DNA from: Gossypium raimondii
Lineage: Eukaryota; Streptophyta; Magnoliopsida; Malvales; Malvaceae
Length of the DNA stretch: 64,000 nucleotides
Direction of reading: 5' to 3'
NCBI RefSeq assembly: GCF_025698545.1
Contig: NC_068575.1
Span: 60,583,980-60,647,979 of the forward strand
The notes under the pieces were generated by a model, which had not been told where the DNA came from, ran no database searches, and worked only from the letters and a program-made list of their open reading frames with translations. Of the stretch, positions 33,813-36,914 are shown piece by piece. Position 1 is the stretch's first letter; each line of letters opens with the position of its first letter. The position numbers were made by a program, and so were the translations under genes.

Positions 33813-35117
33813 ACAGCATGTTTGGTTGGCTATAATGGAATAGAGACGTAATGGAATACATGCGTAATGGAATAGAGGCGTAATAGGTAATCATTTGTTT
33901 GGTTGAATGTAATGGAATAGAGGCGTAATGGTATTCTTGTGTTTGGTTGAATGGAATAGAGGTGTAATAGAAAAAGGAAAAAAAACTAAAATGACTAGAA
34001 TACCCTTAGCAGAAATTTTTTTAGATAGATGATTATTGTTATTGTTATTAAATTTTAATAAGCTTATTAATATAAATAATATATAATTCAATAAAAATAT
34101 ATAATTTAACAAAATATATGAATTTACTAAAATCATAATACATAATACTATAAAATATAATTTAAAATAATTATTATTAAATATAATTTAATAAAATATA
34201 TAATTCCCCACACTATTTGGAGATACAGGATCTAAAGCAATTAATTGTTTGACTAATCAAGGACTGATTTTGTTTAGCCATAAAATACATCAATATATAT
34301 ATTTATGTAATGAGAGTTTTCATTTACATCCGAGTAAAGTTATTTTAATTTTATATTTCAACTAACTTAACATTTTATCTCCTATATTCTTTTGGAATAT
34401 TAATTTTATATCAACCTTATACCATTCTTCTATATCATTTTGATTAAATTTAAGCTTAAATCTTATAAAAATAACATGTTTTAATAATAAAATAAAACAA
34501 ATTTATTTTATTAAATTCCATAAGTTCAACTTAGTAAACTGTGCTTCTTTTAAAACGAAAAAGGAAAGCACGTTATGATATAATTTGATTTAATAAAATT
34601 AGTCAATACCCAAACTTTACAATTTAATCATTTGTGTCCTATACTTTAAGCAAATATTCTCTCCACTGAAGGTGTAGTAGATCACTTCATGCAAGACAAC
34701 AAATCAAAAAGCAATTATATAAAGTACAAGCTTATCAGTATAAGGCCAAGCCAAGGAACCAATTTCTATTTTTCCTTCATTAAGCTTATCAGTATATGGA
34801 TCCATCAATACACAAACACTTGTACAACCAAAAGTCCCATATAGGAAATGGCACATTTTTCCCTTGAACTAAAAGTAGCTACTAATGCTCAAGCACACAA
34901 GAATACACAAGCTATTACTTTAGTGCATGCGCACAAGCACACCCCCTTGGGTACATTCACATTTAAGAGGATAATATATACTAATAAACCAATACCAAAT
35001 AAAAATTTACAATAAATTCATGCCAATTTCCCCTTCAAGAACTTAACAACAGCAAAACAAAATAGCTCTAACAAACAAGTTCCAAGCAGAACACAATAAT
35101 TATCTCATCAAATATAC

Positions 35118-35738
35118 CTTTGAATTGGAGATATACTCTCTGATAATATACCAAAGCTGAGCATTTGTATCCATCAACTGTAAATTACACAGAAAAGAGG
35201 CAAAACGGCCATGAGTTTCATGATGTACACCAAGAATTGGAAACCACTCTCAGTTAATCTTGGAGCTTTTTTATCTCTGTAAAAATAGACATAAATACAT
35301 CATGACACCAATCGTGAGATATAGAACCCTCAATATCTATTGCATAAAAGAAATGAAGCTAAAGTTCATGGCAGGATATAGCACCTCTGACGCAAAAGAC
35401 CACGCTGAAAAATTCTCATCATGGAAGAGCTGAAGCTCGTTGATTTTTCAGCTTGTCCTGAACTTATAAGTTGCAAAGAAGAAACACCGCTTAACAAAGT
35501 GAAGTAAGAAGCGACTCAAACATTAAAACTAAGCAGTTGAGCAAATTCAAAACTAATTGCATAATTCGCATCACATACACTACCATTAAGAACATAAATT
35601 ATGCCAATGAATCGATGAAAAAATAGGTGAAAGTCACACCTCCCATTGCTCATGTGCATAGGCATCGAGCTCCTCGAGGTTGGAAGCCTTGCAGTAACAC
35701 TTTGAGGCATCAGTTCTCTTGGCAAAATCCCACGCAAC
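35118..35738 (-). pseudogene. TFB2: Captured fragment of TFIIH subunit 4 (p52/TFB2)
   Basis: TFB2/p52 is a core subunit of transcription/repair factor TFIIH that stimulates the XPB helicase. Four exon pieces are visible on the minus strand: about 35738-35640 (GILPRELMPQSVTARLPT, then, one frame over, NLEELDAYAHEQWE), 35457-35385 (QAEKSTSFSSSMMRIFQRG), 35276-35231 (APRLTESGFQFL) and 35177-35118 (LMDTNAQLWYIIREYISNS). All inner borders are canonical GT-AG, and exons 2 to 4 join in one frame. Human p52 has a matching GFQFLLLDTPAQLWY stretch, which supports the call. The first piece has a frame shift inside ARLPT..NLEEL. Introns are kept, so capture was from DNA. Not a working gene. Confidence 0.8.
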
Positions 35739-36356
35739 TATCTCAACTATCTCAACAACTCGTTGAGTAGTAACATCTTCTGCATTGTTTAAATATGGCA
35801 ATGCACATATTAAAATTCGATGGGTTATCAATTGAGCACCTTTGCCTAGTTATGGTTAATCGGGCAAGTTGAAAAGAACTCTCTGAAACCCACATAATAA
35901 TTATCGTATATCCTTGAGATCCATTGGTGTAATCAAGAATCGCAATCATAGGAGCATTTACACAACATCCTGCAGAAAACATTTACAAAGTCATTAAATT
36001 TGTGAGAGTGATTAAGGAAAAAAAAGGTTAGCATAAATAGATTTTCTAATAAAATTTGGCATTATAGAGAAAAAAAGAAGTAAACATGTAAAGGGAAAAA
36101 CTTACCATACATTCCATTTCTCCAACAGAGAATAAACCGTCCTTTGTTACCTCTGAATGATAAAAACAATAGATACTTCATATTCAATACAATCTAAAAC
36201 TTCAAACTCTGACATGAGTTTTACGTGATATGTGTATAACTGCAAGCAATATGTTTACAACACTTACCATTGCGCTCAACCCCCAAGTATTTCAATAAGG
36301 CTCCTTCAATTTCTCCTGAACCACATATCATACATGGTGTTGTGCCACAAACCAAG
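35739..36356 (-). pseudogene. NDUFV2: Captured fragment of NADH dehydrogenase 24-kDa subunit (NDUFV2)
   Basis: NDUFV2 holds a [2Fe-2S] cluster in the peripheral arm of mitochondrial complex I. Minus-strand exon pieces: 36356-36268 ([20 protein letters not shown], then KYLGVERNE), 36152-36106 (EVTKDGLFSVGEMECM), 35969 to about 35905 ([20 protein letters not shown]) and 35779 to about 35739 ([13 protein letters not shown]). The four cluster cysteines of CGTTPC and CMGCC are represented. The first two pieces splice in frame with GT-AG borders; the next junction is one base out, and the donor after QGYT reads AT rather than GT. The N-terminus and C-terminus are missing. It abuts the TFB2 fragment at about 35735-35740. 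Confidence 0.88.
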
Positions 36357-36914
36357 AAAAAATAGAGCAAGAAAGCAACGATGGAATCAAATCTAAAATA
36401 CCTTTGGGAGATGTTTCTCCTTGAAGATCTTCAACATGAGATTAACTTCACTGGTTTATCCTTCAAAAACAAACAAAAACCCTAATAAACCAATATCAAT
36501 GTGAGCAATAGCACTTCCAGTGAGGGAGAGACCTGGGCATGAAAAAAAAAAGGGAGAAGGTTGGAAGGAAATGGGAAGAAGAAAGAAAAAAGAAGAAGAT
36601 GTTTCAGACGTATTGCACCCTCATCTAAACCAACTCCATAAAACAAGAAGAAGAAGCAGAAATCAATGGAAGGGAAAGGGAAATTACCTAATCAGCGTTT
36701 GAGGCAAAAATTGATGGAAGAAGCAGAAATTGACGAGGGCAGAGAATGGAATAGAAAAAAAGAATAGGGAAGGAATCCCTAATCGGTGTTTGAGGCAGGG
36801 AATGGCTATTACAGCCAAGAGAGGTAATAGATCCGTAACCGAATATGGCCGTAATAGCATTACGGGCAACCAAACATATGAATAGGTAGGGCCCACGTAA
36901 TAGGGATGTAATGG

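Follow-up and report, generated by a model that had tools for sequence, protein, structure and literature searches.

Within a 64,000-nucleotide stretch of the Gossypium raimondii genome (NC_068575.1, positions 60,583,980 to 60,647,979; hereafter the window), an insert running from position 33813 to about 36914, its right border ambiguous by 3 nt (CTA), carries pieces of three genes between transposon arms, all in the same orientation (minus strand) and with introns kept. We regard it as very probably a member of a Pack-type, non-autonomous family with PIF/Harbinger-type ends, its pieces joined by template switching and the product then amplified in trans. The insert shows a transposon shuffling pieces from three unrelated housekeeping genes, in a datable exchange of exon modules by a DNA transposon (some 2% divergence from the parents with methylation-prone sites masked), and its seams are good enough to ask whether the route of capture was template switching or the fusion of neighbouring insertions.

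Captured gene pieces and their parents

Read along the minus strand, the insert runs from right arm through VPS2-type exon 1, NDUFV2 and TFB2 to left arm. Its features, in window coordinates, are as follows.

33781-33812, no strand: left copy of a 32-bp direct repeat, identical to 36915-36946
33814-33829, plus strand: left TIR CAGCATGTTTGGTTGG; same terminus after TTA or TAA in relatives
33814-34742, plus strand: left arm, AT-rich, common in whole or part to window-type, TFB2-LSD1-type and long-type relatives
34728-34745, minus strand: TFB2/left-arm seam, with about 15 nt recopied from 54 nt upstream in the TFB2 piece
35737-34743, minus strand: TFB2 (TFIIH p52) piece, 960/1032 identical to C10:1.94 Mb by BLASTN
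35738-35760, minus strand: NDUFV2/TFB2 seam, GAGATAGTTG doubled; TFB2 starts at the intron end TTGCAG
36355-35740, minus strand: NDUFV2 (complex I 24-kDa) piece, 589/622 identical to C7:3.73 Mb by BLASTN
36505-36354, minus strand: VPS2-type (ESCRT-III) piece, 94.1% over 153 columns to C10:391.26 kb (L071)
36506-36914, plus strand: right arm, truncated, its last 27-30 nt including the right TIR absent; the arm also occurs in other elements
36915-36946, no strand: right copy of the 32-bp direct repeat, identical to 33781-33812

The NDUFV2 piece holds the exons CGTTPCM (in part), FSVGEMECM, CCVNAPM and EDVTTQ with the introns between them; joined, these exons score against PF01257 (Pfam, E 1.1e-17), and the piece lies nearer to C7:3.73 Mb (94.7%) than to the paralogue at C8:5.43 Mb (77-81%). 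The TFB2 piece, its introns likewise kept, holds GILPREL, the exon following it, TESGFQFL and LMDTNAQLWYIIREY, and a typed join of its exons, two residues of which were supplied and not read from the sequence, scores against PF03849 (E 1.8e-23), a profile that also scores at the parent locus, C10:1.94 Mb. BLASTN to the parents and the two Pfam profiles thus bear out the preliminary description in its exon pieces, their order and strand and the retention of introns. Its reading that a transposon captured NDUFV2 and TFB2 in one orientation also holds, the parent loci having been found on separate contigs (NDUFV2 at C7:3.73 Mb, TFB2 at C10:1.94 Mb, with the VPS2-type parent apart from both at C10:0.39 Mb). 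Its count of two captures was too low; with the VPS2-type exon 1, the capture is at least triple.

This third piece comprises a 5' leader, the ATG exon 1 (MLKIFK...) and the start of intron 1, and a second VPS2-type copy lies at C5:56.59 Mb (95.7% over 187 columns). We take the gene to be VPS2-type on the strength of a VPS2-type query protein, which Pfam places as Snf7 (E 2.4e-38), whose nearest solved chain is CHMP2A and whose further exons match C10:391914-393827 in order. The short VPS2 exon pieces alone matched nothing in Pfam or PDB searches, and the Snf7 profile PF03357 gave no row at C10:391-394 kb, so the name is less secure than those of NDUFV2 and TFB2.

Relatives, seams and the route of capture

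A search of the genome (750.8 Mb, 281 contigs) with window positions 36600-34900 returned at least 44 match rows, and since 40 of the 67 candidates were scored, the copy count is a lower bound. At least ten copies at different places have the NDUFV2/TFB2 seam in common, and ten were aligned over NDUFV2 and TFB2 (the window copy, L032-L039 and L041). Five of the ten, L035-L039, form a longer subgroup in which a 1.3-kb stretch with 96.5% identity to C11:3.15 Mb replaces part of TFB2; this subgroup has gained a fourth source. At least ten match rows are limited to the TFB2 part (query 991-1701), and in all seven of these that were examined, L042-L048, left arm and TFB2 adjoin a fragment of an LSD1 zinc-finger gene whose source is C6:60.31 Mb (PF06943, E 2.7e-9). 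L030 consists of an older left arm and pieces of TFB2. The family keeps swapping gene partners. One sister copy (L033 / L060, C11:62.46 Mb) has been split by a later insertion of about 3.3 kb, its own TTA duplication intact.

The seams are conserved to a degree that allows the manner of joining to be read from them. The NDUFV2/TFB2 seam is present in 10/10 copies, with a 9-nt deletion inside it in L033, and the TFB2/left-arm seam is the same in five window-type and seven TFB2-LSD1-type copies (12 shown). At the VPS2/NDUFV2 seam there is filler of about 8 nt, and 57 nt have been lost there in the window copy only, 57-58 nt being kept in 9/9 other copies. Each of the three seams shows templated filler or microhomology, and at none of them was an internal TIR seen. 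Since filler has been copied at the seams and no internal TIR is seen there, their structure favours template switching over the fusion of neighbouring insertions.

The fusion model would have TFB2 and VPS2 Pack insertions flank an NDUFV2 segment, the whole moving as a unit while the inner ends decayed. It is the published model for Pack-PIF elements (Gisby and Catoni 2022, PMC8903248), and it is kept alive by separate elements at C9:40.97 Mb and C12:38.76 Mb that combine the right arm with a longer VPS2 piece and have no NDUFV2 match in the sequence examined; elements with left arm and TFB2 occur as well. Against it, the seams in ten copies pass from gene to gene through 2-15 nt of copied filler, without trace of a TIR, and both inner arms would have to have been lost simultaneously; we consider it unlikely, if still worth a minority share of belief. 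Under template switching, the preferred reading, the pieces would have been joined within the element in the course of repair or replication, and TFB2 would have been captured first, because its left-arm seam is common to the TFB2-NDUFV2 and TFB2-LSD1 lineages.

Pack-PIF elements are already known, and this one is an unusually modular member. Pack-PIF (Pack-Harbinger) elements are described in maize and rice, with Zm-Pack-PIF cluster 18 holding gene pieces of 163 bp and 58 bp, and the main text of that paper makes no mention of Gossypium (PMC8903248). The elements described there resemble ours in their PIF-type TIRs, TTA/TAA TSDs, probable non-autonomy, gene pieces and subgroups with successive acquisitions; the pieces here greatly exceed those in length (about 150, 616 and 995 bp) and keep several introns, the three source genes share an orientation, and TFB2 turns up with differing partners. 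The system described in PMC8277862 is likewise multi-copy, with microhomology or short insertions at breakpoints and distal parents, but it is one of animals, whereas here several unrelated donors meet in one plant element. Among the literature listings searched we found no report of this family, which is not proof of absence.

Coding potential and divergence from the parents

The captured gene pieces are probably silent, methylated passengers. The insert contains no ORF of at least 150 aa (the Pfam scan covered selected pieces), and an NDUFV2-TFB2 fusion protein is not supported: the NDUFV2 reading frame does not carry over into TFB2, and read-through ends ...VEIVAVGFCQEN-stop about 13 codons on. 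A functional product of another kind would be a peptide of some 77 residues that runs in frame from VPS2 into NDUFV2, or small RNAs directed at the parents. Phase 1 is common to VPS2 exon 1 and the second NDUFV2 exon of the insert, the ATG exon comes with its leader, and with parental splice positions forced the 77-residue frame is kept in 2/10 copies (L035 and L038). Such a peptide would nevertheless need the first, acceptor-less NDUFV2 exon to be skipped and would be without the CGTTPCM cysteines; one acceptor AG is altered in each of L035 and L038, leaving 0/10 copies fully intact, the L037 frame is open only with a shifted acceptor (scripted forced splicing), and exon 1 of the window copy has a frameshift, its frame broken after 13 residues. 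Private changes are similarly frequent in exons (27/3594) and introns (56/6667). Copies compared with parents at masked sites differ at 55/3596 exon and 159/6703 intron positions, a difference that can reflect constraint on the parent genes, and no selection on the copies is visible. Nothing suggests a useful protein from the window copy, and we hold a functional product to be very improbable.

Equally hard to credit is a gene-assembly line, in which a resident TFB2 module would be repeatedly joined to new host modules and the VPS2-type leader, ATG exon and donor site would start a phase-matched VPS2-NDUFV2 peptide, with the transcript or small RNAs of certain copies or relatives, but not by way of the window copy's frame, touching genes of ESCRT, complex I and TFIIH together.

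Raw identity of 92-95% was rejected as a measure of age. With CG and CHG neighbourhoods and indels masked, the window copy differs from its parents at 26/1243 sites (2.1%) and the ten copies at 1.6-2.4%, with a mean pairwise distance among copies of 1.7%.

Relative to the parents, indels and multi-base differences in window 33813-36914 and in L032-L048 cluster at CAG/CTG sites, where CWG has often been turned into CG. Complex copy-parent events touch CWG in 143/256 cases (27/52, 35/64, 30/44, 15/43 and 36/53), when CWG makes up 6.0-8.5% of bases; the control trinucleotides give 8/256 for GWC (1.5-4.4% of bases) and 37/256 for CWC/GWG (12-18%). These counts follow the removal of 49 homopolymer events from 305, with shared changes counted once per copy. 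At CWG sites the middle base is lost in 11/382 cases, against 1/1285 for GWC, CWC and GWG together; such loss is higher at AWA (57/1317) and TWT (50/1431), presumably through homopolymer slips. Several odd sequence states recur in unrelated copies. The CWG share is 29/157 between NDUFV2 gene paralogues, 10/63 over six window repeat pairs, 0/1 between the C10 VPS2 gene and the C5 copy, and 1/7 between the C5 copy and the C9 element. The CAG/CTG signal seems somewhat better explained than not by CHG methylation, whether its effect came by way of base-calling error or of mutation; confidence is moderate because several controls carry no clear signal, and base-calling artefacts, although considered, are not established. 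These differences may be a methylation footprint that can be read from an assembly; if so, caution would be due with many of the seeming frameshifts of young transposon copies and with ages drawn from raw identity.

Element ends, superfamily and the site of insertion

Both ends could be read by pattern in 11/18 elements examined (one or both were unreadable in the window copy, L032, L039, L043, L044, L046 and L030), and matching 3-bp flanking repeats occur in 11/11 of these, as TTA/TAA in ten and TGA in one. The relatives' TIRs are (C/G)(A/G)GCAYGTTTGGTT on the left and AACCAAACATGCTC on the right, the family's TIRs being written GRSCAYGTTTGGTT. Genome-wide, TIR-start matches are preceded by TWA in 498/638 cases, where about 7% is expected from base composition, and reversed-pattern controls gave 0 and 32. 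The bare TGTTTGGTTG motif has 12,587 genome matches against 2,771 for the reversed pattern and was rejected as transposon evidence, being weak alone and common genome-wide.

PIF/Harbinger elements are moved by a DDE_Tnp_4-type transposase with a Myb-like partner. Assigned by TSD and TIR, the family is PIF/Harbinger-type, with 3-bp TTA/TAA TSDs and short TIRs, of which the window copy has neither the TSD nor the right TIR; a PIF/Harbinger transposase supplied in trans would have amplified the chimera. Host gene fragments with located parents lie between the ends and have moved as a unit to several loci, as in Pack-TYPE elements. That other elements share the ends agrees with the preliminary description, and no non-transposon ancestral locus with the pieces adjacent was found that would speak against it. 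Pack-MULEs, too, hold transduplicated gene pieces with introns between TIRs, but differ in TSD length and TIRs; MULE TSDs are 9-11 bp, and Helitrons have neither TIR nor TSD. Capture by either, although multi-gene capture is known for both (PMC13317346), can be set aside as barely credible, the TSDs here being 3 bp and TIRs being present.

The window copy's own insertion is atypical and non-canonical: its right terminus is lost and 32-bp repeats stand on either side. The inverted ends previously described are present on the left, and the ends are common to relatives; subterminal TGTTTGGTTG repeats lie in the left arm at 33819, 33896 and 33940. The right-hand TGTTTGGTTG at 36867-36876 was rejected as the true end, being another subterminal copy, as complete right ends in relatives run 27-30 nt past the point where the window copy stops. 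The left end is normal and the right short, no 3-bp TSD is present, and the left flank reads TTA, of which TT is attributable to the host. The host sequence broken by the insert is repetitive, and in 6/6 related host repeats read the 32-nt region is single-copy; these repeats diverge after only about 10 nt to the right of the insertion site, so the left side of the empty site is well supported and the right side thinly. The lost terminus and flanking direct repeats make break repair, or a later rearrangement, likely: a transposase-independent event would have placed the copy, or altered it afterwards, leaving the 32-bp repeat and no right terminus, and break repair that took up a copy of the element as filler, or template switching at the right end at a later time, accounts for the site better than transposase does.

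Elsewhere in the window, a minus-strand ORF with a Myb DNA-binding domain lies at 41518-42153. Positions 60168-61913 and 62241-64000 form a 1.77-kb AT-rich direct repeat (96.8% identical), and 11968-13867 and 20251-22093 a 1.9-kb direct repeat (87-88%), the second copy of which is overlapped by an ORF with a RING-variant domain (20579-21034). Several inverted repeat pairs of 90-95% identity occur in 6733-9000 and 14240-18750, adjoined by a malate dehydrogenase ORF at 5457-6824.
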